From contig NC_060118.1 of assembly GCF_021155765.1 (NCBI RefSeq), positions 11,975,146 to 12,039,145 on the forward strand: a stretch of 64,000 nt of DNA, written 5' to 3'. The stretch is from Diprion similis. Taxonomy: Eukaryota; Arthropoda; Insecta; Hymenoptera; Diprionidae. Position numbers and translations under genes: made by a program. This document shows positions 13,619 through 52,900 of the stretch, piece after piece. Below the pieces are notes generated by a model. That model was given only the letters and a program-made list of their open reading frames with translations. It was not told the origin of the DNA and ran no database searches. The stretch's first letter is position 1. The number at the start of each line of letters is the position of its first letter.

Positions 13619-15568
13619 TTAGGCGTTTAGAGGATTGCTTTCTTTTTCTGATCCACTGCAAATATTACCCATCCTACAAAATCCTACGTGAAATTGTTTT
13701 CTCGCCGATCGTTTGATGTCGTCCTTCCACAGGAAAATATAAAATATGAGAAAACTCTGCAGAACTTCTTGCAAGAAGTAGAGGCGGGTCATCCAAATGG
13801 TCGGCCAGGTGTACCACGTGAGCCATATTATGGAGTGGATACCCGTCAGTAAAAGCAGTTTCATGTGTAGCTTAGCCCTGGAAAAAAGCAATTGAGACCA
13901 TCAGTGATTACAGTGAAGTAAAAATTTGAAATGGATCTATAAATCTCGACGACTCAGCGAAGTTCAACGGTAATCAATAGCTTACCACTGTCTTCCAACG
14001 GCGTCGTCTTTATTCGAGGAGTTGGCCAGACGCTTCGTGTCCTTTTTGAATTTCTTGAGTATTCGGGCCGTTGCAAAGTACAGAAGAATGTTGCAGGAAA
14101 AACTAAGAGCAAGTATTCCCGAAGTTATCCAATGTTTGAAAGCAACCACTGTAAATTGGTATATATAATGATCATTTAAAATTACTCTTTAGGGAGGATT
14201 TATGACAAAGTAACGATAATTCGAACTCACCGCCTGGGTCATCGTAGGTGAATGGTATCAACGTCGAGGCCTGATTGACAATCAAAACCATCGAAATCGG
14301 TAGAAGCCAAGCATAGATCGCGTATCGAATGAACTTTTTTCTCGTTCTGTCCCTGATTCGTTGGGTATCTACATTTCTGTAACGGAAAAACGCTCGTATG
14401 AACTCTTTGAAAAAGCCAATGTATCCAATAAGATGTTTGGATAGTGATCAGATATTTCAGACAGGTTCGTAGATATCAATATCTGAACACTGACGTTACG
14501 AAAATAGTTTTTCAACTTACTGAAACGATCTCCACATGTCAAAGTTCATCACGTTGAGCCAGAAGACGACGGAAAACGAACAAAAGCGTACAAGCTCGAC
14601 TGAAAAAGGAAATTTACTGTAAAATTAGTAGAATTTGGGGATGATTAATCACGAGAATGAACAATTAGCTATAAGCGTCCTTCTAAGTTATGCCTTTTTT
14701 CAACATTACCGGAAAGAGTGAAGTAAAGAGGGTGATCTGACAATTCAAGCGTACAAATTGCCCCCCACAGTCCAACGAATCCAAAGGTGTAAGTAGCCAC
14801 GAAGCATCGGAAAATCAATCCATGGGAAGTTTTCAGTTCCGGAATGACAGAGTAAGCTATGACAATAACCACCATGGTAGAAGCAGAAACGACTGCGCAA
14901 AATATTTCCCAGTTTCCTACTGTTATCCACGTGCGACACGCCTTGGCGACAAAATTTGTCCGTTCCGGATCCCAGAGCAGACAATACTGGTCATGACTCG
15001 ATTTTGTGTCGAATTTTGGTGCGTAGATCGTTCCGTTTGAAAACACTGCTGCAATATCTACAATGGATGGTCTCGTCCAATCAGCGATGCAAGGATCATC
15101 GACGAACAGGTGATAATCCCATTGAAGGCCATTTCCTTTGTCTCTGACAACGTTGATCAATTCCTTAATTTTCGACAGAGATGCAGGACTGCTGTCATCC
15201 GGCTCGCATCGACTAGGCAACCGGACCATTCCTGGAGGACAGCAGAGTGGAAGGCACGTCTTGAGTCGACAGGCACATCCGAAAGTCTCATCACCCACGG
15301 TCCACGTTACATTGGGTACCAAAGTTCCACCATATTTCATCACCAACCCCGAATCGTCGAGTTTCACTCCGGTCAAATTGACTATGGCGTCGTCTGGACA
15401 GGACACTCTGGATCCATCGACGTTGACGATGATCGACAGCACAATCGGAACCAGAATTACGGAAAGAAGGTCCCGCGAGTTACGGACAACCATATTCCAG
15501 TCGAGATTGCCAAGAGTTCTGAGGGCAAACTGACTGCAAACTACCAATGTTCGTTTGTATAACAACAT
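13619..15568 (-). CDS. Complete methuselah-like GPCR with Cys-rich ectodomain, copy 4 (501 or 476 aa)
   Basis: Five minus-strand exons: 14710-15568, 14521-14599, 14231-14376, 13986-14148 and 13619-13877, with phases 1, 2, 1, 2. The first Met gives 501 aa. The Met at 15493 (residue 26) gives 476 aa and directly precedes a signal-peptide-like segment (LLSVILVPIVLSIIVNVDGS), so it may be the real start. The ectodomain spans about residues 54-218, with a Mth-like cysteine pattern (CACRLKTCLPLCCPPG, then CEP, DDPC, YCLLW, ACRTW) and N-glycosylation sequons at 64, 86 and 178. Helix 1 starts near 220 (VVIVIAYSVIPEL), and the remaining helices lie in the small exons. The family works as G-protein-coupled receptors at the plasma membrane, linked in Drosophila to stress resistance and lifespan. 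It is the probable parent of the truncated copies downstream. Confidence 0.9.
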
Positions 15569-17177: not shown

Positions 17178-20100
17178 ATGGCTGTCGCCGGTTCGTCAGC
17201 GTTGTTTTCGCGCCTGAGTTACACGCGAAATGTGTTAAAGAATGGAAACAAAGGGTTGGAAGTGTTATCAGGGAGTTTCAACCGTTCAGTAAGTATGACA
17301 TAATCGTAAATGCAATATGCCGATGCTGCTGTTGACCTCAACCTAACCTAACATAACCCTAAAATCTGCAACTATAGTTCTTGACTTTGTGTTTTCATCT
17401 ATCTAGGGTGTAACTCCGCGCTTTTACACAACCGGCAATGCCAGAGAGAATGTGAATGAACCAGGTCGAGATGTCGCCGAGCCGGAAAAAACGAGCAAAG
17501 CGATGAGGGCGTACTTGGAACGCGCTAAGAAACACGGTAAGCTCGTTGTTCGTCGTACCAAAGTGATTTTCCACCGTCTCCACTCCGTTCAAAAACATAA
17601 ACCGCAAGTCGCTTGTTTTTGCAGATGAATTCATTCAGAAAGAGACGTTAGAGTTCAATATTGGCAAACGTCATCTGGCGAACATGATGGGATTGAATCC
17701 TGAAACTATAACCCAAGAGGACATCGATGTAATTTCAAATTTCCGTTGAACCTACGTCATTTTGCAAAGAGATGAATTTTTTCTCATTACTTTTTCTTTT
17801 TTTTTCTATGTAGGAATCCATAGAGTACTTGTTACCGTCGGGGCTATTCGACAAAAGAGCGAGACCCATGATGCGACCTCCGGATCAAGTCTTTCCTAAG
17901 TACAAAGCTGCAGAGTTTGATGCTAGTGGCAGACCTTTACATTCTATGTTTTACACCACCAAACCAAACTTTTTTCAAGTACTCTACGTAAGTTGATGAT
18001 GTTTTTGGTTTGTTTTTTTTCGTCAGTTATAAAGTCTAGCATAAAACTTACCGAATCTTTTTAAAAACATCCATCGCTTCCAGCATCAATTTGAGCTGTT
18101 ATTTTGCAGGATATCGTAGAGGCGACAAACCTTTTGAAGAAAAAGAAATTAGAGATGGATCCTCGCGCAGAACTGCCACCCGAAGAATTGTAAGTTTCTC
18201 AATCAATCGTTTTACTGCTTTTTACTATATATCGATTCATCTTTTAGTTCTGCCCAATTTTCTCTATCATACTTTGATTTATGATTATTTAAACACCAGT
18301 GTTAAGGTAAAGTCTAGATGATACCTCGGTTAAAGTGTCTTTTCTGGTACATAGTTTACTGAATCTTTTCCCTCTCTGCCTTGTTTTAGTAATCTATCTT
18401 CGACAGTGTGGATCTCGAAAGCTGAACTTGAACAAATGTTGATGGAAGAGCTGATTGACAGAGAAGTGAGTAGCCACACTGACCTTTGTCAAAATCATTG
18501 CCTCTCTGCCAGAGTCTAGTCAAATAATTATGGTTTTCCCTTTTCAACAGTACAAAGAATTTGTCACAGTCTTGCAGAGATTAGTCCAATATCCCGGCTT
18601 GAACCAGGTACAAGACTTGCTAACCAAGTACAGTAAACGCCGCTTGACTCTAAAATCGAAACTAGCTATTCCGCCGGTGAGTCTATAATATCACATTCTA
18701 GACAATTATTTGCTAAAATAACAATTCAAAGACCGACCAATCTGTGTGCATCGTTCCTTTTTCAGCTTGACTACAACTCCGATAAAAGGCCGTTCATCAC
18801 TGTCCCCAGTACGTAAAAACTGCTGAAAATTTTTTTTGTTGCTGACGGAAATTAAGCATTGATGAATATGTTTTTTTTTTTCCCCATTACAGACTGCATG
18901 AGAAAATCGTCCAGAGCAGAAGTAACGGTTCTGGGACAAGGATCGGGAAAGATAACAATAAATGGTCAGAATATTCTCTACTTCAATGACGTTCAGGCGC
19001 GAGAACAGGTAAGAAACTTAACGACATTAGTCAAAGTTATTTTTACGCGTCACAAGGAATTTTCATTAGGACGAAGATCGATAAGCTAACGATTGATCGG
19101 TTAGCCGAAACGGAATGTCAAGATTTCGACGATTAGCGATATGTTATTTTCATGGAGATAAAAATCACTGCACTCGTTAATAGATGGTATTCGTTGAAGA
19201 GAATTCCACAAATTTTCCGTTAATTCCTCTTCGTTTCTTATCCAGAAATCCTTACGATATATTTAATAAAAAAGGAATTAGGATAAACAGGAAGTCATAC
19301 GTATGAAATCGACGTTTCAAGAGTCATTCGGAAGCAAAGAGTTTCTCTCTACACGACTCCCGGAATCAGTATTAATACGAAACATTGAAACCTTATCATT
19401 TGAAATTCGGCGAAGTAGCGATTACAGACTAGGCTGGTGTGTTTCTCCTACCGCAAGTCATCGTAATCGATCAAAACACGCACACTGTGCTCGTTGCCTC
19501 GTTTCGTAAATCTACGAATTGTAAAATCGTGTCGCCAGCAGTACTTTGCGAGGTGTCGTCGCAGCAACGTAGCGTGTCTCTGACCTTCGCTCTCATACGC
19601 AACGAGTCAAATAGTGAATATCAATTGCTGTTTATTTTCGTAAGTGGCTCGACAACCGTCTCGGGTGTATTTCTCTCACGTATTTCACAGTCGATGTCGT
19701 CACACGTTTGCTTCCTGATACGTAGGAAGTATCGGCTAATGGTTGCCAGAATTGACGCTCCAAAACCATTGAGACTCAACGATCAGTCAGTCTCACGGTA
19801 ACTTGGGTGCGGACCGAACAGTTGCCGCCCTGGAATTCCGTCGATCAGGCATGCCGAGGAAGTGGAACCTGAAGTGGAAGAGGGCTTCGTTCCTGTAGGA
19901 ATACGATACCTGGATAAACCCGAAGAGAGAAAACTTATCCGCGATGAAGGGTCCACGCGAGGTCAGGCTCAGCCTGGAGGAGTTTATTCTGCCCATGAAT
20001 AAACGGCTGCAAACAACGCGGTGCCGCAGCTATTCTCTGGCCGATCCTTGCCAGAGCTGCCTGAGTCAACGGGACTTGACCTTGGTTCGAACCGCCCCCG

Positions 20101-23100
20101 CGTATCACTCGACGAGTGGTTCGATCCTCCGGGAGTTAGGTCGGCGGGCCGTGGAAACGGTCCGAGAAGAAGAGGTGCAGATAGACGCGGGTGAATCGCC
20201 GCCGGCGGACCACTCCCTCTTCTTCGACAACTTCGAGCGTCTGAGGGACGTCGGTTACGACATCGAGCGTGTGAGGATAGCGATGGAGGCGGCGGTGGAG
20301 GCGGGCGAAATGGACGCGTTGATCGACCTGCAGCGTGGCATCATCGTCGAGGGTCCGGACGGTACGCTCTTCCCCGACGCCGACGCCAAGTTCCGGAACA
20401 TCGCGTACCTCTGGGCCTGCTTCGGGGGCCGCGTCGATCTGCTTCCGCGGCTCGAGGCCTCGGGTGCGGACATGAATTTCACCGGTGAGTTAACCGGGCT
20501 CAATGCGATGCTTATTAGTTGCATGTCGAACAGCGCGACCTGCGTCGAGTACCTGATAAAGAGAGGAATGGACTGCAACGCTGTCGACGCACGCACCGGG
20601 TACACGCCCCTGCACTTTGCCGCCTTCGGGAACGCTGCCCAGGTCGCAACAATTCTCCTCGACAACGGCGCGAAGATCCGCTCCGACGGATCGACGACCG
20701 AGTCCGTTCTCCACTGCGCGGTCCGGGCTCGCGCCGTCGAGACCGTCGCTCTTCTTCTGGAACGCGGTGCCAGCGTCGGGGTGCGGAACCAGGCCGGCGA
20801 GACGCCCCTCCACGTCGCCTGTTTCGTCCAGTCGATACAGTGCGTTGAGCTGATCCTTCGACGACCCGGCGTCGAGGTAAACGCCACTTCCAACGACCTC
20901 CGAATCCCGCTTCACTTCGCAGTTATGAGCACGACCGCGGCTCCGGAGCTCATCGCGCTGCTACTGACACGGGGCGCCCTGGTCAACGCCGTCGACGAGG
21001 AGGGCTACACCCCAGCCCATATCGCCGCCCTGAACGAGCTCGCGGAGCCCGTCAACGTCCTGCTCAAGGCCGGCGCTGACCTCAGCGCAAAGACCCGCTC
21101 CGGCGTCACGGTCCTTGGCGTCATTCTCAGGAAGATACCCGACGCCCTCGAGACCTTCCGCCAGATCCTCGACGCCTCCGTCGAGCTCCGACGACCCGCC
21201 GCCTACCGCAGGGAGTTTGAACTCAGGCTCGACTTCGAGCCGCTGTACCCGAGCCGTGACGACGGCGAGATCGGGCTCGTCGATACCATCCTCGAGGAAC
21301 ACCGGAAGGACCTGCTTCAACACCCGCTCGTCACCGCGTTCCTCCACCTCAAGTGGGAGAAGATGCGCAAGTTTTATCTCCTCCGGATCATCCTGTATCT
21401 CATCACCGTTGTATCCCTCACCGCGTACGTTCTGTCCGCCGTTACAGGAGTCCAGTGCTACCAACCAGAGACCCAAACCGCCGATTACTGCTCGGAAAAC
21501 TCCATCTGGGTTACCATATGGAGTAACGTCTTAACCACCGAGTATTACCTCCTGACATTCCTCGCCTGCTCGACCGCCGCGAGGAAGCTCTTCGAGTTCT
21601 TTGTGTACCACTCGGTTAAGCAGTACTTTTCATATACCGACAATATCCTTGATATTTTTGTTGTAATCGGCCTGTTTGTCGCTACCAGCACCTACGATCA
21701 AGCCGTCGCCGGTTCCTGGCAGAACTACGTCTGGGCCTTCGCCATCCTCTGCGCTTGGACAAACGTCATGCTCATGATCGGGCAACTCCCGGCCTTCGGG
21801 ACCTACGTCGGGATGTTCACCCAAGTGCAGTGGGAGTTCGGCAAACTGCTCATCGCCTACTCCGGGGTGCTCATCGGGTTCACCGTCAGCTTCTGCGTGA
21901 TATTCGTCGGCGATCCTTCGTTCTCCAATCCCTTTACCGGGTTCATAAAGATCATGGCTATGATGGCCGGCGAGGTCGATTTTCAGGGACTCATTCTGAC
22001 CAACAACAAACCAGCTGACGGCTTCTCCTACGTTTCGATAGCTTCTCAGCTGCTCTTTGTTCTATTTTTGTTTTTCATTACGGTCGTTATGATGAACCTT
22101 CTCGTCGGTATCGCCGTGGACGATATAACGGGCCTGAGAAAGAACGCGGGGATAACCAAGGTCATACGACAGACGAAGCTCATCGTATTCGTAGAGACTG
22201 CTCTGAGGAAGAACGTCGTACCGAAACGGTTCCGTGAATGGGTATTGAGCTCCGGGTCGTCGAGCGGCAAGGAACGGAAACACGTCCTCGTCGTCAATCC
22301 CTTCAATCCGCTCGAGAGGCGGCTACCCAAGGATATACTTTACGCCGTTTACGAACTGGCGCAGCGAAATGCGCCCCTTGAATCCGACGTCGTTCTCGAG
22401 GAACGCGTCAAAAAAAGCCGGAAAGAACCGACGACCGACGTTGCACGGCTTAATTCCGTCATCGCGAAACTCTCGAACAGGCTGCAAACTCACGAGGAAA
22501 ATATCAACGCTATAAAGGAACAACTCGAACGGACCAACAAGGCTTTGGAGGAGATTCTATCGCTCGTCAAGCGCTCGGATTCCTGAACTAGTTCTTCCAC
22601 TTTGCGCCTTAACCATCGGCAACCTGATAATCCAACCGAATATCAAACTCCAGAGTTAGTCGCGTTAAATTAATGGAGGGGGGGGAGGGAGGCATTTTTA
22701 AGATTTTTTTTCCAAGGAAATGAATACACTTAGAGCATATTGAGTTTGAGGGCTTTGTTATATGTAGATTCAAGAACATTTTGGAATTTTTTCATCAAAT
22801 TTAATGACAAAATGGCGGCATGACCTGAAAAATCTGGAAAACCTGAAATTGTCAAGCGATTTTCAATTTGGTCATGGAAAAAACTGAAAATGTCACTTTT
22901 CTATCATCGGAATTAGAGATGATTTTTTGAGGTAATAAGTTTACTTTTTTTTTACTGAGAAAACCAATTGGTTTAAACTGATTATTTTGTACGTTATATT
23001 TTTCTTCAATTCGAATAGAATTTCAACCGAATATAGAGTTACTAAGCTGAACAATTCAGGTTTTAGTAACTTACTAGAGGTGGAAAAGATCAGGGAAAAC

Positions 23101-24383: not shown

Positions 24384-26428
24384 TTACATTTTATCCAGCG
24401 GCTGTAGTCCCAGCAGCTTCATGCCCTGAGCGAGAACTCTTTTCGCTGCGTAAAAGACCAGCAGTCTTTGAGAGGCTACGTCGTCCGGTTCACCTTTGAC
24501 CCTGATCTCCTTGAGTCCCTTGTTTACGGCGTGGCTGTGAAATGATAAAGGTCAATTTGAATGACGTTCTAGTTAACAAAAATCCGGAGAGATCGTTTAT
24601 TTTATCACAACTATTACCTAAGTCCGAAAAGATAATTGACCAGAATGCAAGGCTCCAGTTCTCGGTGGGACTTAATAACTGCCTGATCAAATCTGCCAAT
24701 TTGAACAATGAGCTCTTCAACAATCTGCTCTCGCAAAAGCGACGGATCACATTCGGTCGGCAACTTCGCTCCGGAATTTTCCTCCAGGCTCTTCAGCCTG
24801 CAGTGAACGTACTGCATTTTTACCCCGGTATCTCCTTTAATCTGATTGAAAAAGTGAAACAATAAAAAAACATTCATTTCCGTTCTAAAAAAGTATCCTG
24901 CGGATATTATCCAAGGGAAAACGTACGTCCAATGCTGTGTTCCAGTCGAAATTATAATCCTTTGATCTTCTCTGTTTCAAATCGTTTATAATCACGGCAG
25001 ATATACCCAAAATGTCTGTAGACTTGTCGGAAGAATCGAGCGATACTTTGGTGGCTGTGAAAACAGAGATTCGTCTTTCAAATTATTTGTTGTATTGTCT
25101 TGTTAATTTAGGTTTTAGGAATAGTTAACGCGACGATCTTACTCGGTGACTGAATCTGATTTTCCCTCATCACTGCTTGAGTCTCGTCTAAAATATCTTT
25201 CAGAAACACAGCCGAACCCTTTCTGGTGCTCATGCCTTTGATCCTGCCAAACTTTAAGTGCGTGAGTCTGTCCGCCCAGGGAAATTTCATTTTTTCTAGT
25301 ATTTTAATCAAAGTGGCGAAGTGCTCGTTCTGGGCAGTATCAACGACGTAATACATGGCGTCAAATTTGTATCTGTCAAATCTGTCCACAGCTGCCGCTA
25401 TGTCTCTTGTTAAGTACAGCGTTGATCCATCACTTTTGATTATTGGTACTTGGCGCTTCTCGTGAAGAGAAACCACCTTTCTGCATTCGCTGTCAGTGAT
25501 GAGGAGACCTTGCGATTCCATGAGCGATATGATCTGTGATATATTTTTAGCATTATAAGTAGACTCCCAATTGTACTCGTCGAATTTGACGCCGAGTCTT
25601 TGGTAGGTCGCCGTTAGCTCGTCGACAGTGAATTGCCTGAACGTTTCCCACTTCCCTATATCCCTTGCATTCCCAGATTCTAAATCATTGAAGATTTCTC
25701 TTGCTCTCTCAGCTATCGACGGATCAGTTATGGCAAGTTTATTAGCATGAACATAAGCATCATAGAGCAGCTTGATCGGCTCCTGTTTCATCTTCTCATC
25801 GGCCACATTGAGCAAATTAATACCGAGCTGAACAAACCCAAACTGGGTTCCCCAATCCCCGAGGTAATTAATCCTCCTGACATCGTTGCGCATGAAATTA
25901 TTGATATTTGCGACGTAGTTTCCAATGATGGTAGAGCGCAAATGACCGACATGAAAGGGCTTTGCAATGTTAGGAGAACTGAACTCGACAATGATCTTTT
26001 TCCCTACGTCGTCGATCCCAGGTATCGTAACTGTCTTTGGATCATTCTCCAGAATCTCCCTGACGCAGCGATCCCTGTTCAAACGAAACAGTACATTGTC
26101 TAATCTATTTTCGTTCGGTCGGACCTCAGTAAACACACCGTCAGGCTTTAGCGAAACGATATTATCAGCCGAACTCCTCGCATCATATTCCCTAGTTCTC
26201 AACGGTAATGAGACGATAAAGTCGCCGCTTGAATTGTCCCGCCTCAAATCCAGGTAAGAAAGAACAGCGTTCACAGCCTCGGGTGGCTGAGTATTTCCCA
26301 AAGATCCTTTGATCTGAAAGAAAGTCCCAAAATCTGTGTCAAGTAAGGTTATGTTAGGTTAGAAATTTTGTATCGGGTCAATTTTTGATTACCCTTTTGC
26401 ACAGCTCGGTGCGTATCTTGACGCTCAT
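24384..26428 (-). CDS. RARS2: Mitochondrial arginine--tRNA ligase (569 aa)
   Basis: Five minus-strand exons: 26393-26428, 25143-26313, 24927-25054, 24618-24841 and 24384-24534; the phases close to 569 residues, close to the 578 of human RARS2. It charges mitochondrial tRNA-Arg with arginine using ATP. The class I HIGH-type motif is FHVGHLRSTIIGN; INYLGDWGTQFG follows; SDGSTLYLTRDIAAA is the nucleotide-binding region; the degenerate KMSKS loop is GMSTRKGSAVFL. The C-terminal anticodon-binding helices end in VLAQGMKLLGLQPLDKM, typical of the mitochondrial rather than the cytosolic enzyme. The start lies in a 36-nt first exon (MSVKIRTELCKR), basic and suitable as the beginning of a mitochondrial presequence. 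It is convergent with mRpS9, another mitochondrial translation gene, and divergent from lap. Confidence 0.95.
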
Positions 26429-27582: not shown

Positions 27583-27809
27583 ATGGCCGGCCAGACCATC
27601 AACGACAGGCTGCTCGCAGCGAGGCACAGCATCGCCGGTCAGGGACTCGCCAAGTCCGTCTGCAAGGCCACAACCGAGGAGCTGATCGGCCCGAAAAAGA
27701 AGCACCTTGACTGTGAGTAGCTCTTTTCTTCTTTTCTTTCAATCCTCTTATCACCTTCGCACATAATTCCTTCCAAATTTCATGTGTTTACCTTAATTCT
27801 ATATATATA

Positions 27810-28790: not shown

Positions 28791-31177
28791 GTACCGGTGA
28801 CAATGACCTTGCCGAATTAACCGTTAATCGGACAAAAAGGAAATAAAAATAAGAGTTGAAAAAATCGATAAATATGTACATTTATAATCACCGTGGGCGA
28901 GGAGTAGATATTTATTGATTTTTATATCCAATTTTTGTATATTTAGACAAGTTTGAAAACATATTTCTTTGCGGTTTTTAGCTACTTCGGATAGTTGGTA
29001 TATATTACTAATCTAGGTCTTCAATACTAAAGTAAATTTTTATTTTTAAAAACAAATTGAAAAATGAATAAATCTTGAGAATTGACGGAAGAATTTATTT
29101 CTGAAAAAGTTACATGTTTTACATAAATTATTGGTTTTTGGGGTCGCTTGTTACGAATCTGAGATCGGATTTGAAACATTCAAGATGGCGGATCCAATAT
29201 GGCGGACAAAAATTTCAAACTCCATCGTATCCGGAGAAAAAAAACTGCTCAGGAGTTTTTGGGGTTGCTGATTACGAATCTGAAGTCAGATTTCGAAAAT
29301 TTAGTACAGCAAATCCAATCAGCGACCGCGAAAACGTCTGCATGAAATTTTTTAACCGGATTCGATGAAATTTTAAATTTTCATCGGCCATGTTGGATCT
29401 GCCATCTTGAATTTTTGAAATCCGGCTTCAGGTTTGGAATCAGCGATCCTAAAAACCGTAAAACACTTTCTTCTTGGTATAAAACTTGACTCACAATCAG
29501 CACAATAATGCGTGTGACTCAAAGGCCGGTTTAACGTAACGCACGTCGTAACGACGGATAGACTGACGAGGATTTGCCGGTATAAGCAGGAGTCATTAAC
29601 GGTACAAAATATGTACTCTTTTCGAAAGAATTTTAAATCCCCCGAAGAATGAACGAGAAAGCGAGAGATGATCCATTATGAGTTAAAGATCTTTATAAGA
29701 CGGGGTTGGTAAGTCGAAAATCAATACTTTCTTGTCACAAATTAAAGAAAAACAAAACCTTTCAAGATAGTTTCGATGCTACCGTTACAGCATTCCGTGA
29801 AAGTGAAGGTGGCGGTGCGTATATATATATATATATGTATAATATATATTGCAACGATAGTCTCTAGACGTTACGTAAAAATAATCGGATATGCATTCCA
29901 CGTTGCACGGGATTTCCGAGTGGGGCGAATTTTTTTGTTTTTATTATTTTTTTGTTTGTCAGATGGGGGCTGCTTAGACGGAATTTCAGAAATTTTCTAC
30001 CTATAGAAAATGAGAGAAGAGGGGTGCTAAGAACGGGGGAGGGGTGGGGAAGGGGGGGGGGGTAAAAAATGCTGGAAGTTAAGAAAATGGAAAGGTCGCA
30101 ATGTCGAATTTTCAAAGTCGCAATATCCAATTCATAGTGTTTTGAAATGATGGAAAAGTTGTGTATAAAAAATTCCAAATCCAAAAAAGTCCAAGTATAT
30201 TATATGTGTATTAGACTGTATCAAAAAAATTGACTATTTTTTTTTTTTTCAATGTTATACTGAAAATATTGTTCAAGATGACGAAAAAAAAATACCATCA
30301 AAATTTCAGATTTTTATATTGATATTTAGAGGTGCCTCATCGCGATTTTCTACTTTCCATAAGAATAATATAGAAAAAATGGTTCTTCTCCTTGCGATTT
30401 TTATAACTAGATAACGACGCGTCGTACAGAAAATTAAAAAACACATTTTGTAGGAAATTGAACGTTCTACAAAAAAGGTCTCTTGTCATTTTACGATAAA
30501 TCTACTCCTTCAAAAGTTATTTGAGGTCCTTTGTTGATGTTTGACCTCAAATAACTTTTGAAGGAGTAGATTTATCGTAAAATGACAAGAGACCTTTTTT
30601 GTAGAACGTTCAATTTCCTATAAAAACATGTTTATGAATTTTCTGTACGACGCGTCGTTATCCAGTTATAAAAATCGCAAGAAGCAAGAACCATTTTTGC
30701 CATGTTATTCTTATGGAAAGTAGAAAATCGCGATGAGGCACCTATAAATATCAATATTAAAATCTGAAATTTTTATGGTATTTTTTTTTCGTCATCTTAA
30801 ACAATAGTTTCAGTATAACATTTAGAAAAAAAAATAGTCCGTTTTTTTTTATACAGTCCAGTGTGTATATATACATAGTATATATTGAAAAGCGAAAATA
30901 TTGAATCGTCAGAATTCTGATGATTATAATGTAATTATGTAATTAATATATACATACATATATATATCTACATTCTTACTTAATCGGGCGATTCTATATT
31001 CTGGCTTTCTATAATTTGACTCTTTTACATTTCGGATTTTTTTATACTTTACCTTTCTTTACTTTAAAATTCTGTGTGCAGTATTAGGTTTACTCTTGTT
31101 TGAAAATTCTGCGTTGCGTGACCGTTTTATTTTCTGATAATTCTCCATTTTTGCCACACCCTGAAAAGAACTGCCTG

Positions 31178-31214
<37 letters not shown>

Positions 31215-32512
31215 ACACACACACACACATTCTTCTTCTCTTCTTTCTCTTTCCGGAAAATAAGAGGTAAGAAATCTATCGGTTCAAAAGTTGATTTAAA
31301 CAATATAAATTCTGTTACAACAGTTTACGTTAAAAAAAGTAATCGGAAAAATTTCGGAAAAATTTCGATGTTTCAGTAAAGAAGATAATACGAACTTTAA
31401 GAAATGTGATTTTTTTCTTTCTCTCAATTTTGTCTTCATTTTTCAACCGTTATTTCACAGTGGAAATGAAAAAAATCGTGAAACATGACGTAACTAATTT
31501 TTAGCCTCAAATAACTTTTTAACCGGTATAGATTAACGAAAAAATCGCGAGAGACCTTTTTATTTTTTTTTTTTTTAGATCGTTCAAATTTCCTGCAAAA
31601 ATTAATCCTCCTCCTAACGATACGCCAGTCCGTTGCTGAGCGATAAAATTCCGAGATAAGGGGGAAAAAAAAAAACCAACATGAAAACAAAAACAAATTT
31701 CCCGTGTTATTTATACGAAAAATAGAAAATGGCAAACCAGCACATCTTAATATTGATATAAAGAGCTCGAACTTTTGCAGAAATTTTTCTTTATCCTCCA
31801 CTTGACTGATATTTTCACGGTGACTAACGAAAACCAAAAAAACAAAAAAAAAAAAAAGAAGAAAGAAATAAGTCATTTCTTTTTTTTTTTTGAGCCCACC
31901 CTAATATACAATTTATATATACACACACACACACACATATGCATATATTTATATATATATATATGCGAATTGACGGAGATGAGGGAGTATTAGGAGGGGG
32001 AGGAGGAAAGGGAGGTTCATTGATCTTCAATTTCTTTTTACTCTCCATCTTCTTCCTCTTTGTTCCTTCTTTCTTTCGTTGCACATTCCTCGCGATTCTC
32101 CCTTCATGCCGCCGCGTCTGATTGTGAGGCGTCGCGACGAGACGACGTCTAGGCAGTCAATTCGATCGCGTGGCGCAGGAAGAGGAGGAAGAGGAGGAAG
32201 AGGAGGAAGAGGAGGAAGAGGCGGAAGAAGGAGGAGGAAGCATGCCGAGCCGGGGCGAGGAAACTCAACTCGGCTTTTACGCAATCTTCATACATATGCA
32301 TGTACATACTTATATCGCTCGACGAGAGAGGCTCGTTAAACTCTCGCGATTTGATGTATAAAAAAAAAAAAAATATATATATAAAGATATATATATATAT
32401 GTCAAATTCCATGTAAAATAAATCTGAGTCCATAAAACGCGATATTTTTTATATCCGAAAAACTCGTATCGCGTTAGAAATAGTTTTAAAATTATCGTTA
32501 TTGTAAATGTAG

Positions 32513-39142: not shown

Positions 39143-41393
39143 TTTTCGTTGGGGTTTTTTTTTCTCATCTCAAAATGAAATCATTATTGGGTTTTCAGTT
39201 TTGAAACATGTCATAACGACCCTCGTTGGCAGGTTGTGAATTTTCTTCTCTTCCTTTTTTTAATCTTCTACTTTCGTTTCGTTTCATTCTTTTTTGTCGC
39301 TTCTCTCCCCCCCCTCCCCCCTCTCGCTTTTTTAACATTTCATCGACAATAGTTTGAATAAAACCTCTCGCAACAGCAATCTTAAGTCTCCTCTCGAGAT
39401 TCATTTCCATCCCTTTATTCGTCACCTCGAAACTTTCGTGTATACCGCATATATATATATATATATATATATATTGTATATATATATATAATATTATATA
39501 CAAGGGGTGACTGAAGATAAGATCTGAAAACTCAATGTCACACTCTACACCCACCTGCAGTAAAAGTACCAAATATATATATATATGTCTTTACATAGGT
39601 ATAGATATACATGTATATATATAATTTATAAATTATTATTTATTTATCTTATTTTTTTATTTTTTTTTTTGTAGATCGTTCAATTTCCCACAAAAATGTG
39701 TGTTTCGCGGTATTACGATTACGATGATACGTTTTTGAGAGTAGGCAGGGCAAAAAAAAAAAAAAAACAAAAAAACTTGTCCTCGTTGCGCATACAATTG
39801 TGTATTATACTGAAAATTTAATCGAAAACTGAAAAAGAGAGATAAGGAACGAAACAAAAAAAAAAAAAAAAAAAAAAATTAAGTTTCTATTATTATATCA
39901 AATACACTGTATTAAATACAATTGTATGTTACATGCGAGAGAATAATAATAACAATAATGACAATAATAATAATAAGAACAACAATAACCGTTAAGGAGG
40001 CGATAGTTTACGTTGTGCAACAATGAAATCAAACCAAAGGCCTATTTTTCTTATCTCTCGTACGTAGTGCATTATTACATGGGCGTATGTATGTACGTAC
40101 ATACATACATACATAGATATAATGTACACGTAATGGTGTCAGTTTGAAAATATATCAGAGTCATTCGCTATGTTATCCTATAATGTATGTATATATGTGT
40201 ATGTATAATGTATATATATGTATGTAATATATGCTTGTCGCGCGACCTGCTACCAAACGTTACAAGAATCGCGGCGAAGAGAAGGGTGAGAGAGCAGCTG
40301 GGCTTGGCTTCGCCCTAGCGATCAATACTTAAAGAAGATAGCCGCAGCTTCCCATTAATTATCCTTCCACCGAAGATTTCTCTATTCCCCATTTTTCGTT
40401 CTCTTTTTTGTTGTTGTTTTTTTTTTTGGGGTTTTTTTTTTTTTTTTTTCTTTCGTTTTCACGTTTTTCATCTGCAACTTCTCTTCTCTTACTCTATGAT
40501 GATGAAGATGAAAATACTTCCAATCATTATATTGTATGTATGCCTAGTCTTCTCAATTCTGCACGATGAATTGAAATGACCGATTTTTTTTTTTTTTTTC
40601 TTGTTACTAATAATAATATATTTATTGTTTATTACATAGTAATTTTTGTTATACAGTATTTTCGTGCATTAGGTAAGGTTACAACCTTAGAACTATTTGT
40701 TTGATGAACTGAATTTTTTTGTTTTTTTTTTTATCGAATTAAGCGTTGACGTCAATAATTTATTGTTGCGCAAGGGTTAAATTATTTTTGTATCGCAATG
40801 GCTACAGAAAAATGTTGTAAGATTTTTTATAATCGACAATAACAGTGTATTCATGAATTTATCAATCTTTCCAACGAGATGATAGTATTCTATGTGTTTT
40901 TGGGGTTACTGATTATAAATTCAAGACGGCCAATCCAATATGACGGACGAAAATTTTTAATTTGATCGAATCTAGTAAAAAAAAAAAAAAAAAAAAAAAA
41001 ATCTTTGCAAGGGTTTTTGGGGTCGTTGATTTTCGAAATCTGATTTCAGATTCGTTATCACCGATCCCAGAAATCCCTGGGCAGAGTTTTTTTTCTCCAG
41101 CGACTCGATAGAGTTCGAAATTTTCGTACGCCATATTAGTTACCCGCCATCTTGAATGTTTCAAATTCGATTTCAGATTCGTAATCACCGACCCCGAAAT
41201 TCCCTGGAACAGTTTTTTTTTCCTCCGGACTCGATCAAATTTTAAATTTTCGTCCACCATATTGGATCCGCCATATTGCATCCGCCATCTTGAATATCTT
41301 AATATCCGATTTCAGATTCGTAAACGATTTGAATGTTTGAAAACGATACTTGTTTTTTCCCCCCTCTCCAATCATCGAAAAAAAAGAAAGGGG

Positions 41394-45635: not shown

Positions 45636-46930
45636 CTCTTCATCTCTCTTTCTCTTTTGTACTACGGTATCATCGTTCACACGTGGTCCTTGACCCCGGC
45701 TGCAAGGGAGAACCTTTCAGACTTGTATTCCACGATTAATTTGATTAATCAATAATGTAATGAAAATATATGAATTAAGGGATGGAGAAAAGAATTTTAA
45801 AAGAAGAATATTGCATGTACGTATAATGAAATAGTCGTGATAAAAAGGAAAACAAAAAACTCTATATTTTCCTTCGTCATAAGTATAATCGCGACCGAAC
45901 GATCGTCGAAATTCGTTATTAATTTTTTATTTCTTTTTTTTTTTATTCTCCTCTTTCCTCTTATCTTAACTCCTTTACCAACTGGTTCAATTTATCGTTG
46001 ATTTATTACACCTGCGGCAGTTTTAAATCGCCCGAAAGCTTGGAAAAATTCCGTATTGTGAAATCATACTTGAAGAACGAATAATATAATAGAATATTCA
46101 GATCGATCGAATTATACGCGTGTTCATGTTATACATATATATTTTATAATAAATATCATTTAAGTGTATAATTTTTGTTAGGATCGGTGATTACGTATCT
46201 GAAATCGAATTTGAAAAATTCAAGATGCTATAGATTTAATGTGGCGAATGAAAATGTCAAATTTGATCGAATCCGGAGAAAAAATTCTGCCCAGGGGTTT
46301 TTGGGGTCGCTGATTGCGAATCTGAAAACTCCCGCATAAAGTTTTTTGACCGTATTCAATCAGAATTGAAATTTCTGTCCGCCATGATGGATCAGCCATC
46401 TTGAATGTTCAAAATCTGATATCAGATTCCTAATCAACAACCCCGAAAACCCTCGTGTAGAGTTTTTTGACCGTATTCGATCAGAATTGAAATTTCTGTC
46501 CGCCATGATGGATCAGCCATCTTGAATGTTCAAAATCTGATATCAGATTCCTAATCAACAACCCCGAAAACCCTCGTGTAGAGTTTTTTGACCGTATTCG
46601 ATCAGAATTGAAATTTCTGTCCGCCATGATGGATCAGCCATCTTGAATGTTTAAAATCTGATTTCAGATTCCTAATCAGCGATCCCGAAAATCGTAGTAT
46701 ACCATGTTGTTATTAAGTTTGACTCAGCACAATATAACGTGTGACTCAAAAGGTTAAATAAAATTATATAAAATCCAGAGTCGAGAGTATTTTTGTTTGC
46801 ATCAGCGATATTATATCCATAACAATAGTAACTCGACGTTGCCGCGTTTGCCATTTTTGGAAATTCAATATCTCCTCGTAAGTACTCGCGAAGCGGAAAT
46901 CTCTTCTAAACTTGCTAATATATGTTATAT

Positions 46931-46985
<55 letters not shown>

Positions 46986-49900
46986 TGTATAATGCTGTGC
47001 GGTATATTCATTACAGATGAAATCAGACAAAAACGGAGAGCGTTTTGAAAAATTATATTATACATATTATTATAATCCCTGCCGAACAAAAAAAAAAAGA
47101 CATATTCAAATCTCATCGACGCGGTTCAAAAACTTGAATTGCAAGAGAAAAAAAAAAACAGAAAAAACAACAACAACGACGACAAGAAACTTGAAAAACT
47201 TGAAAAACAAGCGATATTTTTTGCCGATCGATTGTGCATCGCGGATCATATGATGTTTCAACACGCAACTGCAATTCCAACATTTAATTTAATCAATATA
47301 ATGCATTTAGTTGGCACCCCCTTCATGTTTATATGTATGTAGGTATATACATAAACGTTATACATGCACGTATTCATGCATGATGCAGCGACTTCTGACG
47401 CCCATACCACATATAGGTATATATACTCTTATTTCCGCGTCTCGTGTCAATCACGATTCTAATAATGGTCTAACGCGTAGATAATTACCTACATTTGAGG
47501 TTATGTATATGTATATACATATTTGTAAATCTTTTTTTTTCTACTCGAGAGTCATTATTGCGATATAATGTAAATTGTTAATTTTAGAAACAAATTTATT
47601 GGCAAAATAAGTCGAATCGCGATAATTGAAGGAATAATTAATTTCCGAGAAAGTTACCCCTTTACATGTATATATATATTACAAAATTATTATAAATATA
47701 ATTTTATAAATTCAAGATGGTGGATCCAATATGGCGGACGCAAATATCAAATTTGATCGCATCCGGAGAAAAAATTCTGTCCTGAGGTTTTTGGGGTCGT
47801 TGATTATGAATCTGAAATCAGATTTCAAAAATTTCGTACGGCGAAGCTAATCAGCAACCCGGAAAATCCCTGCATAAAATTTTATGACCGGATTCGATCA
47901 AATTTGAAATTTTCATCGGCCATATTAGATCCGCCATCTTGAATTTTTGAAATCAAATTTCAGATTCGTAATCAGCGATTCCAAAAACCATAAGATACTA
48001 TCTTGTTGTAAAAATTGACTCAGCATAATAACGGGTGACTTAAAGGATTAGAACAAGCCAAATTTGTTGAATATTAAAATCCTCTTGAATTTATTTGTAC
48101 CCGTTAAAAATAGACAGTTAACTAGACATGAACTTTTAAAATTAAGACAAGGAAATAATCCACGTTATATGTTATAGTATATACCAGAAGAAATCAAAAA
48201 TTCACCCAAAACAAAAGAAAAGAATGACCATTTTCAGATTGCATCAGATTGACAATGCAAATTTAGGAAAATTAAAATCAGCGTTGAGTTTGCAGAATCT
48301 TTGTGAGCATATTTTTCAATACCCATATATGACGATTAGTACTGAAAATTTCAAACAATTTTGGACGTTTTGTAATAACAATTTATCCTGAAAATTCGTA
48401 CATCGTCGTTGTTATCTACATACATAATGCATGTATCAACGTTAAGAACTTGAACCTGCATTTTATATCTTTATGTCTATTTGTCGATACCATGTAAAAT
48501 CGTTCCTTATACTGAATTGTTATTTCACCCATTCTTCTTTTACAGATTTGATACACTGTACAAACGAGCCAAATGTCTCGATACCACAACTGGCTAACCT
48601 GCTCATCGAGCGGTCGCAGAACACAAATTGGACTGTCGTATTCAAGGCCCTTATCACTGTACATCACATGATGTGCTATGGAAACGAGGTGTGTAATAAA
48701 TCATCTTCATTTTCATCGTCATGGTCATCCTCTTTTATTGATTTCTATTAGAAATTAGAACGGCTTTTCATGCTTCAACAGATTTTCACTGACCCACTCT
48801 TTTCCTTTACTTTTCAGAGGTTCACCCAGTACCTGGCGTCAAGTAACAGCACTTTTCAGCTCAGCAGTTTTCTGGACAAAAGTGGGGTGCAAGGTGAAAA
48901 TTAATGCTTGATGAATAATCGAATGTATTATAATATACGTGATTGAAAATCATCATCATGCAATCAGCATCAACATCGTTATCATCATTACAGTTACTGT
49001 CGCTACCTTAATTCAATTTTTACTATTTATGATGCATCTCTACAGACTCTGTTCAAATCGTGTCGCGTGATTTCTTTGCCATTTTTCTTCCTCACGGAAT
49101 TTTCTTCACACATCACAAATCGAAAATTGTTTCTCCTCTTTGTTCAGTATTCATTTCCCTCCATTTATACTGTCTGCATACATTGTTTTTACTGTAACTA
49201 ACTGCACATGTGGAACGGAGAAAAAAAAAAACCAAAAAGGAGGAAAGAAAACAAACGATACATTAACAATTCTCTTACTGTTAACATGGTGATTAATTTT
49301 CATCAATCAAGACGTGTCAATAACTGCAATGATGCATCTTACGTTGATAAAATATTATTATTTTTTTTTTCTTTTATATACAAGACCTTTCATTATTCCT
49401 CGTTAACTTGCAGTAAATCGGTTGTTATTCATGTTTACATTTTCCTTTTCTATCAACAGCTTTTCTGTTAAAATTGGACCTAAAATGAAGAATAATGAAA
49501 TGATTGGAGAAAAAATCTGTCTCCTCTGTTTAAATATCTGTTTTCCATGTATCTAAATTCTCTATCATGTGTATCTCTGATTTATTACTAACCGGACTAA
49601 TTTTCTGTTTTTGGGAACAGCTGGAGCACGTGTGGGTGAGTTGTGTTACGTAGAATTACCGAACTAACTTTAACTTTAAAAATGAACAGTTCTGAATAGT
49701 TGCTTGTCTTATACTCGAACGCAATATTCATGATGAGAAAAGAAATTTGTTCTCAGTATCGTATAATAATAACATTTATTCATCGATATTCACCTCATCT
49801 TATCGAGACAATTTTAACTGACTGTTATAATATTGCAATGTCACTTTATTCTCTTACGACTTCTCTAAACGTCCGTTCGTTGTCTCATCTCGTCGTTTCT

Positions 49901-52900
49901 CTTGAAGACATGGGTATAATTGTTGAAGAATTGAAACAAATTGACAGTAACTAGTCACAATTTTTATTAATCTGTTAATTCTGCAGTTGTTTTTTATATT
50001 CGTAAATTTTTTTCCGGCTTTTGAATAATCTTATTTTCTTACGCTCTAATCGAACAGTTTGCAAATGTCTCTTATCTTTGTTTGTAGGATACGATATGTC
50101 GCCGTTCATCAGGCGGTATGCTAAATACTTGAACGAGAAAGCACTTTCGTACAGAACCGTTGCGTTTGATTTTTGCAAAGTCAAACGAGGGTAAATAAAC
50201 CATAATTATAGTATTTTTATCGTATAACATGACTGCGTTAAGGAAACGCTTCTTACATCACAAATTCGAACGATATAGAAACTCACCGATTTTCTTCGTT
50301 TCACTTTTTTTATTCACAGCAAGGAGGATGGTACTCTTCGAACGATGAACCCGGAGAAATTGCTCAAAACTTTACCCGTTCTTCAGGCGCAACTAGACTC
50401 GTTACTGGAATTCGACTGCTCGGCCAATGATCTTACAAACGGTGTTATAAACATGGCCTTTATGCTTCTCTTCAGAGATCTCATCCGTTTATTCGCCTGT
50501 TATAACGACGGAATTATTAATCTATTAGGTAAATCGTAGTTTTCTCAGTATCGTAGAAAGAAAATTATCATTTGGACGGTTTTTGTTGTTTTTTCTGTTT
50601 CAATTATAATGTTTAAATTTTCTTTCTTTCTAGAAAAATACTTCGATATGAATAAGAAACAATGCCGGGATGCGTTAGACCTTTATAGAAAATTCTTAAC
50701 CAGAATGAACAGCGTTGGAGAATTCCTGAAAGTTGCAGAGGTAAAGATAATCCCTACGATTAATAATCCGTCGATAGAGTCGACGAATATTGTTTATGCA
50801 TTTCTCATTTAAATATTCTCCCTTTCAGAATGTTGGTATCGATAAGGGAGACATTCCAGATCTCACAAAGGTACGAAGAGTTAAAACTATTTGCAAATTT
50901 TCTACTCTACCCGATCCAAGTAAAACATACAAAACTAATAATAATTCAAAGTTTTTATACTCGGATACATGTCTGAAAGGTAAAACCTTGTCAGTTGTCA
51001 ATAGATTATTGGCGTAGAATAGTTTGGTAGTGAGTTGAAGGCTTTAAAAAAAAATATATCCAATTGCATATCGCTTCTCGGGTGTTTCTTATGCCACAAA
51101 GTTGTTATTCACAGCTTGAAATTTACAAAAGTAAATAAATTCCCTGCACTTCATCCGACGTTGTCGTCTCTTCGATATAAGTGTATCGTCAATGCAGCTG
51201 AAACAATCCCCAGCAGCGGTGATAACATACTTATAAGCATATTTTGACGAAGCGTCGCAGAGTGACTGGTAATTTGATAAAAATATTTTTCTAGGCTCCG
51301 AGCAGTCTGCTTGATGCGCTCGAACAGCATCTTGCCTCCTTAGAAGGAAAGAAAGGATCTGCGGCTAATACGCCAACGCAAACAGCTAGGTAAGATCACA
51401 GTACATTGTCTTCTTCTTATACTCTCTAACGTAGCGGGTATGACAAAGATTATTAACATACAATTGAGGTATGGATGATAAAAAAAAAAGAAACAAAAAA
51501 AAACCCTCAATTGATTGTAAATATATATATGTATAAAAATGCCTAGGGAAATTTATTTACAATCTTGACAATATGTTTGTTTTTTTCTTTTTCTCTCTCT
51601 CTCACTCTCTCTCTCTCTCTCTCACTCCAATCAAATATATTATACCTTGATTATTATCTGGTCGCAATGATCGGCATTCAATATTACTGTCAAAGTTTAC
51701 AATATCAATACGCACGTGGCTTTGCTGCATCGTTCATATTTACTAATGCTGATATCTTGTTATTATTTTCTCTTCTTCTTTTTCTTCTTCTCCTTCTTAT
51801 TGTTATCGTTAGAATTTTTACTCTTTATCTTTGCAATCGTTGGGAAAATATTTCTGAATAGCTGTACCATGATGACAATTAATCGTTTATAAATATGTAA
51901 TATTGGTAAATCGACAGATGTTAAAAATATTTTTCGCTATATTATATTACGTACCCAGAGGTTTTCAAACCACATCGCACCTCATGGTAATTGTTATTTA
52001 AATCTTTTCTACCGATGATCATACATCTCGTTTTAATGTATTTCACGGTACTTATAGTTTTTTTTGTTCTTACCGACAGCATTAGACATTATTTTCAATC
52101 CTTTCCATCATCTAGTCTGCGATTATTACACTAAAGCCTCTCTAGAAACAATCTAAATCATTTTCTTTTTTCCAACCGTTTAACCAAAACGAAGAAAAAC
52201 TCGATGTAGTTAAGAAATGTTGAAGAAGCTTTGATAAGATTCATCAATGTCTCTGGCTTTTGTCCAAAACACTAAGGAAAATATGCATATGAATCTTTAT
52301 ACCTCTAAATAAGGCATAATACTGGTATTATTGTATTATTTTAAAGCAATTGGTGATCAAAATACTACGTAATATTGAAGTTGAGAATCGTAATAAAAAA
52401 GATTCAGCGAAGCATCGAATTACACGTTAGTTGTAAATTAGTATGATTCCCAACGTCAATGTAATCGTGTGTTGCAATGAAACCAATATCGCTGTCATTT
52501 CTATCCATCCCCGCCCCTCCGCCCTGAATAATAGAGGTTTTTTTTTTCAATTCACACACACCAACATACTTTGTGTTTTCGAGTAGATTAATTTGTATGT
52601 TTATTGTAAAAATATTTCTCAGCGCACATATTTTATATCTTTGTCGTACTTCCCCCTGTTAATACAAGATCAAATCCGATGGATGAACCTTACAATACAA
52701 TACACATACTTTTTCAAAATATAATTTTAAATTTAGTATCCATACTTATACAAACTCAATCCAAGTATCCCAGAATTTTTATATCCAATTTGTGTGTACT
52801 GTATTCTGAGCTTCGATTGTATTTTAGAATTTTTCTTTTCCTTTTTTTTTCTCTCTATAAACTTGTATGTTCCTCGAATTATAATTGTGTTCTTTGATAA

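Follow-up and report, generated by a model that had tools for sequence, protein, structure and literature searches.

The long palindrome in the first coding intron of lap (positions 30212-30860 of the window, i.e., the whole 64,000-nucleotide stretch of Diprion similis DNA analyzed here) belongs to a hAT-like family of foldback MITEs that is non-coding and dispersed through the genome in hundreds of copies, and the arms of this family evolve in concert. Sequence appears to have been copied between the two mirror halves of the element. The family is a new one, ordinary as a source of hairpins, and it documents the joint evolution of arms with unusual clarity.

The palindrome in the lap intron and its dispersed family

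The element was originally predicted to lie in the first intron of lap, and it does lie in the first coding intron: the first coding exon of this host gene (lap/AP180) is at 27583-27712 (+ strand; donor site set by eye), and the next recognizable parts are ENTH/ANTH stretches from ~48.5 kb onward (whole span 48530-50533, + strand; Pfam). Its limits were set by comparing flanks among copies, and the predicted 646-bp palindrome with 316-bp arms (30213-30858) proved real but 3 nt longer (1 on the left and 2 on the right). The left arm (30212-30528, + strand, 317 nt) starts TAGACTGTATC, and the right arm (30543-30860, - strand, 318 nt) is its inverted copy; complementary pieces of 149, 76, and 83 nt (93%, 84%, and 99%, respectively) lie in register in 30239-30528 and 30543-30834, around the 14-nt spacer that had been predicted (the loop CTTTGTTGATGTTT, 30529-30542, + strand). 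The termini are TA on the left and CA, not TA, on the right, where most copies listed have TA. Flank comparison among copies also identified the 8-bp target-site duplication (TSD), with ATGTGTAT on the left (30204-30211) and GTGTGTAT, carrying one change, on the right (30861-30868), both unstranded. No ORF of at least 120 aa overlaps 30212-30860. The predicted RNA fold has a free energy of -418 kcal/mol, whereas 20 dinucleotide shuffles averaged -115 (z -40.6), which argues that the palindrome did not arise by chance and is consistent with the single very long hairpin suggested for the lap pre-mRNA.

A genome search for further copies with GACTGTAT ends, which had been proposed as a check, found them elsewhere. 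In the genome searched (269,008,206 bases in 60 contigs, with the 14 contigs met here making up ~264.5 Mb), similarity search yielded 990 candidates, and all 40 that were scored were nearly full-length. A 31-nt core of the arm, allowing up to 3 mismatches, matched 467 times genome-wide (reversed control, 0); at the 1.75 core matches observed per fetched locus, this corresponds to ~270 loci by this probe. We fetched 138 loci and kept 92 full copies and 36 partial rows, with 10 duplicates dropped. Exact 8-bp TSDs flanked 58 of the 92 full copies, and TSDs differing by at most one base flanked 80, both counts being biased upwards by an end-finding score that rewards a TSD match. The sequence ATATATAT accounted for 22 of the 58 exact TSDs; the other 36 had T at position 2 in every case and A at position 7 in 34. 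TSDs of the family are thus mostly AT-rich and of the form nTnnnnAn.

The elements are short, multi-copy, and without a transposase ORF, with long inverted repeats and TSDs, i.e., the features of a MITE or foldback element. Terminal inverted repeats (TIRs) of hAT elements start with YARNG, from which the TAGACTG ends of the family depart at base 5, and we therefore call the palindrome “hAT-like” only. The 8-bp nTnnnnAn duplication is nonetheless that of the hAT superfamily, and is shared, in the passages available from the respective papers, with Hermes reinsertions (PMC2803484) and with hobo (PMC3276498). The P superfamily differs here: passages from PMC4168063 and PMC3276498 give a TSD motif of GTATTAC, mostly 7 bp, for Galileo and of GTCCGGAC, 8 bp, for the P element, and the TSDs of the family conform to neither. 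As for an autonomous partner, 8 of the 31 places with hAT C-terminal sequence in the genome were read with ~4 kb around them (~2.7 kb ahead of the hAT stretch and 1.2 kb beyond it; more distant ends would be missed), and these contained no paired TAGACTG-type ends; 10-mers with 2 mismatches to TAGGGTGGGC ends occurred in some of the 8 loci at about the chance rate. Among the end matches listed (100 of the 404 TAGACTG ends, on C1-C9, and 100 of the 146 TAGGG ends), none lay closer than 4 kb to any of the 31 hAT places by eye. Viral contigs, a collection from which records near this genome may be excluded, had 0 exact matches to the 31-nt core, and a literature search of titles and abstract openings, with few subscription papers, found no description of the family among the matches listed.

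A majority consensus built from 48 copies forms a perfect 648-bp palindrome, with 317-nt arms, the same loop, and 0 differences between the arms. Separate consensus sequences of two groups, which differ by a cassette described below, A (55 copies) and B (36 copies), had 0 and 2 arm differences in 317 positions, respectively, and the two asymmetric sites in group B indicate that the method can detect asymmetry. The perfect consensus implies that the diverged arms of the window copy reflect decay. The perfect core of this copy is real and 78 nt long, rather than 76 nt; its length would be improbable under uniform decay (p 0.002), although it was picked post hoc. This core had been read as a sign of recent insertion or of conversion at the core, a reading which does not agree with a consensus that is palindromic over the whole arm or with an arm mismatch of 6.9%, which ranks the window copy 45th of 48 among copies with the A cassette in both arms (AA), i.e., among the more decayed. 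Core conversion as a feature of the family was likewise rejected, given the full-arm palindromic consensus, the weak signal of paired changes near the loop (see below), and the small number of copies (8 of 92, with a family median of 20 nt) that have a perfect core of at least 76 nt. The combination of a perfect core with diverged outer arms is what a perfect palindrome leaves after decay. Across the 83 copies with the same cassette in both arms (AA and BB, hybrids excluded), there was no general outer-to-inner gradient of mismatch, which was 0.11-0.18 in the outermost 40 nt, beside a poly-T run, 0.08 at positions 280-299, and 0.02-0.06 elsewhere. The 48 full copies were 87-98% like the consensus. 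One BB copy (L077, C12:11072100-11073200) had the most alike arms seen, differing at 0.4% of counted sites, and yet is ~10% different from the 48-copy consensus.

Cassette subfamilies and paired changes in the arms

Between A and B, the left arms of the consensus sequences have 26 differing columns, all of them within positions 36-117, which delimit an 82-nt subterminal cassette; in the right arms, these 26 differences recur with identical letters, and sites 293 and 296 differ as well. In the window copy, the A-type cassettes are at 30250-30331 in the left arm (+ strand; hand-counted from the consensus positions, 0-based) and at 30742-30823 in the right arm (- strand; limits also hand-counted). 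Distances outside the cassette were those of one population (4.6% for AA-AA, 5.1% for BB-BB, and 4.9% for AA-BB), compared to 32.8% inside the cassette for A-B (A-A 6.0% and B-B 6.8%). Both loop alleles and 13 minority alleles outside the cassette are common to A and B. Genome-wide, cassette patterns with up to 3 mismatches had 268 matches for A and 149 for B (controls, 0).

Genotyping of the 92 full copies gave 48 AA, 35 BB, 8 AB, and 1 mosaic, i.e., the same cassette in both arms of 83. Because many of these copies came from similarity lists that disfavour hybrids, we also used a separate, less biased sample of full copies that match the 31-mer core exactly (55, of which 54 could be scored; mosaic L089 excluded). 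This sample still holds copies first met through similarity lists; in it, there were 29 AA, 19 BB, and 6 AB copies, with 26.1 AB expected by random pairing (P 5e-9). Four hybrids have A to the left and B to the right of the loop, and four have the reverse, with switch points in three of them (L073, L094, and L103) unlike those of the others. TSDs differing by at most one base flank 7 of the 8 hybrids, which therefore look like single insertions, and an origin of hybrids by crossover between loci is disfavoured on this ground.

Changes from the consensus also recur in both arms of the same copy. In the first 48 copies, with subfamilies mixed, identical changes in both arms numbered 229 compared to 29 expected, and unlike double changes only 6. 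With site-specific rates, the Mantel-Haenszel odds ratios for the two groups were 6.5 and 13.6; excluding CpG sites left them at 6.0 and 13.7, so paired changes are not a CpG effect. Outside the cassette, there were 66 paired changes in AA copies (13.1 expected; odds ratio 9.9) and 43 in BB copies (6.8 expected; odds ratio 13.6), roughly a 10-15-fold excess in odds over site-specific independence; 54 of the 317 columns, in homopolymer runs, were excluded from the paired-change counts. Along the arm, the pooled odds ratio was 12-40 in the middle but only 5.1 over the 40 outermost nt and 2.5 over the 37 nt adjoining the loop (2.2 and 2.1 at the outer and inner ends, respectively, in AA copies alone). 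The signal is thus weakest at the outer end and by the loop, the opposite of core-centred conversion. Hence, of the gene conversion between arms that the original prediction invoked, exchange between arms is borne out family-wide, but its focus on the core is not. Paired changes adjoin each other more than in shuffles, an effect that fades once changes within 10-15 nt are merged, and conversion tracts inside single copies, for which there are suggestive lists, are consequently not proven.

Much of the present variation has another source. An arm’s own partner was strictly its nearest relative for only 28 of 184 arms, and the median distance between the arms of a copy outside the cassette (4.1% in AA and 4.6% in BB) was little smaller than that between left arms of different copies (mean 4.6-5.1%), which together indicate that most present differences are private decay. 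At sites 293 and 296, the left arm has CC where the right arm has TT in 13 of 48 AA copies, 20 of 35 BB copies, and 4 of 8 hybrids (37 of 91). That this asymmetry persists in both subfamilies suggests that the loop lay beyond the reach of the copying by which the cassette spread, and copying that stops short of the loop argues against whole re-formation of the palindrome.

Partial copies and an older relative next to the palindrome

The 36 partial rows represent 34 places (L019, L020, and L071 being one place), of which 27, broken either in the second arm or past the first, entered the breakpoint count, with 6 that have central deletions and L078 left out. At 19 of the 27, at most 33 nt of the second arm is kept (binomial 2e-13 compared to a uniform distribution); the first arm is also incomplete at three (L031, L037, and L083). 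The 6 further places have lost the centre and kept both ends. Breakage at the tip of a hairpin, followed by loss of one side, would fit this clustering near the loop. In partial rows, identity of the better-kept arm to the A consensus is mostly 88-99%, close to the range for the 48 full copies (87-98%), and partial copies are therefore not plainly older. In four of them (L114, L081, L072, and L030), an octamer equal to the TSD lies ~6 nt or less from the break, as if a half-element had been inserted; since targets are AT-rich, deletion into the flank explains these octamers equally well, and half-element insertion is not favoured over it. Near one half-copy, we also observed another palindrome of ~1.34 kb (L031:1-1339), with arms 94% alike.

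Beside the palindrome, a decayed single-arm relative from an older family had been noticed at 31495-31830. It is real and belongs to an older family, here called family C, but is larger, spanning ~31272-31903 (unstranded, limits by eye): its remains include ~24 nt of the inner left arm, a spacer of ~200 nt, and a right arm ending GAGCCCACCCTA, with the rest of the left arm missing. Similarity search for family C gave 283 candidates, of which 40 were scored (the repeat at 31272-31903 itself included), mostly at 68-82% identity and with several inverted pairs. Two copies were read, one whole (L148) and one without its right end (L147); they have TAGGGTGGGCC-like ends, arms of ~310-320 nt, and spacers of ~190-225 nt. 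The TAGGGTGGGCC ends conform to the hAT rule YARNG, and TAGGG-type ends number 146 genome-wide (up to 3 mismatches). The inner arm ends of family C were unlike each other in all three examples examined (window remains included), compared to the same inner end on both sides in the A/B palindrome, a contrast suggestive of re-copying of one side from the other upon loss of the spacer. Pairs of TAGGGTGGGCC-like ends also occur ~475 bp apart (C2:2109599-2110073, C4:8399784-8400256, and C10:2016378-2016852) and ~1.5 kb apart (C4:6197869-6199376 and C8:746313-747819), and these are perhaps further MITE families with the older ends.

Origin of the two-armed state and comparison with known systems

We consider it likely that the palindrome is a somewhat decayed hAT-like foldback MITE of perfect-palindrome origin, transposed in trans, with concerted copying between its arms and a weak point at its loop. 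This explanation starts from the observed family, TSDs, perfect consensus, cassette, hybrids, excess of paired changes, and clustering of breakpoints; from these, we infer that a transposase acts in trans and that template switching or gene conversion copies one arm onto the other. The element would be non-autonomous, ~648 bp in length, and made only of two 317-nt inverted arms and a 14-nt loop, and the putative transposase would insert it into 8-bp targets of the form nTnnnnAn. Its ancestor would have been a perfect palindrome, from which copies decay after insertion. In transposing lineages, one arm may be copied to the other, or both arms may be replaced from another copy; arm copying could have put the divergent 82-nt cassette into both arms of about one third of the copies, with one-arm hybrids as putative intermediates of its spread. 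Candidate routes are template switching at the hairpin, gene conversion, and replacement from other copies, either in resident copies or during transposition or gap repair. The hairpin would also be a weak point in DNA, in keeping with breaks in partial copies that mostly fall no more than 33 nt from the loop. A bolder extension, which we put forward tentatively, is that the element is two-fold symmetric, with both ends in effect the same end, so that an ectopic swap of the cassette into one arm, followed by arm copying to the other, may renew the transposase-recognition module of both ends together and thereby start a new subfamily, with the one-arm hybrids as its intermediate stages.

Matching of ends by selection could also produce copies with like arms: cassettes would be exchanged freely through ectopic recombination, only elements with the same cassette at both ends would transpose well, and hybrids would be rare without any arm copying. 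The position of the cassette (36-117 in the arm) is suggestive here, as hAT ends carry subterminal repeats, some of them bound by transposase according to passages on Hermes (PMC10368747), and both the tolerated deep asymmetry at 293/296 and the 13 minority alleles common to A and B outside the cassette are what free exchange would give. We still regard this as rather unlikely, because the excess of identical paired changes is equally strong outside the cassette and in mid-arm, a perfect 317-nt consensus palindrome exceeds what end binding needs, and Hermes itself, in the same passages, has two unlike ends.

The difference between family C, with unlike inner ends around its ~200-nt spacer, and the A/B palindrome, with the same inner ends, probably implies at least one fold-back-like event, which would suit an independent birth of the AA and BB palindromes by fold-back of different half-elements. 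Such a double origin is improbable, however, as A and B share ends, inner arms, both loop alleles, and the 13 minority alleles, their consensus sequences outside the cassette have 0 differences in the left arm and two sites in the right, and whole fold-back would erase the asymmetry of the one-arm TT haplotype that both carry. More doubtful again is an RNA hairpin under selection in lap (a source of hpRNA/siRNA or an ADAR substrate), with compensatory changes keeping the stem paired. The intronic location and the very stable predicted fold would suit it, but there are hundreds of dispersed copies, the arms share the same letters and not merely pairing ones (229 identical compared to 6 unlike double changes), 26 changes were swapped as a block, and the window copy is decaying. 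Since assembly of long palindromes is difficult, arms collapsed or mirrored by assembly or polishing are a further candidate; this is the least probable of the readings, given TSDs differing by at most one base in 80 of 92 full copies and arms that do differ within AA and BB copies (median 4.2-4.6%).

Under the preferred reading of concerted arm copying in a foldback MITE, the closest system found in literature passages is Galileo, a member of the P superfamily in Drosophila, whose authors proposed exchange between TIRs, as inferred for long-TIR families (PMC3573991, PMC4168063). The passages available from these papers describe long TIRs resembling those of foldback elements, copies comprising two TIRs plus a spacer, 98-100% identity of the TIRs within a copy, solo TIRs, and chimeric copies, all of which resemble the present family. 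They also describe a TSD of 7 bp (8 bp in some cases) that has a different motif, TIRs with internal repeats, and nearly complete relatives with a known transposase; in the present family, by contrast, a single palindrome with a 14-nt loop makes up the entire element, TSDs are of the form nTnnnnAn, and arm genotypes can be counted. The Drosophila element mar is likewise a MITE assigned to the hAT superfamily (PMC3517528, by its listing). Perfect inverted repeats in nematomorph mitochondria, the largest a 284-bp palindrome, also keep identical arms while their sequence varies between species, for which the authors, in the passages available, propose repeat conversion or template switching (PMC6649704); unlike the present family, these are mitochondrial, within protein-coding genes, and not transposons. 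Hermes differs by its two unlike ends, with BED domains that bind the left end only in the passages available (PMC10368747), compared to the two identical ends in our consensus. If the family is hAT, an element whose two ends are identical would seem to be open to amplification by a hAT transposase, unlike the asymmetric Hermes. Within one genome, AA, AB, and BB arm states can be tallied as alleles of a locus are, so that arm copying becomes measurable, and each copy is its own clock through its arm-arm mismatch.

The same lap intron also carries a second, decayed inverted-repeat family (29133-29457, 41029-41323, 46160-46711, and 47694-48010), with a motif like CAAGATGGCGGATCCAATATGGCGGA and copies ~65-95% alike on both strands. 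Neighbouring genes in the window include a methuselah-like receptor (14669-15568, - strand), an ankyrin-repeat ion channel (TRP-like; 19944-22586, + strand), and an arginyl-tRNA synthetase (25108-26301, - strand).
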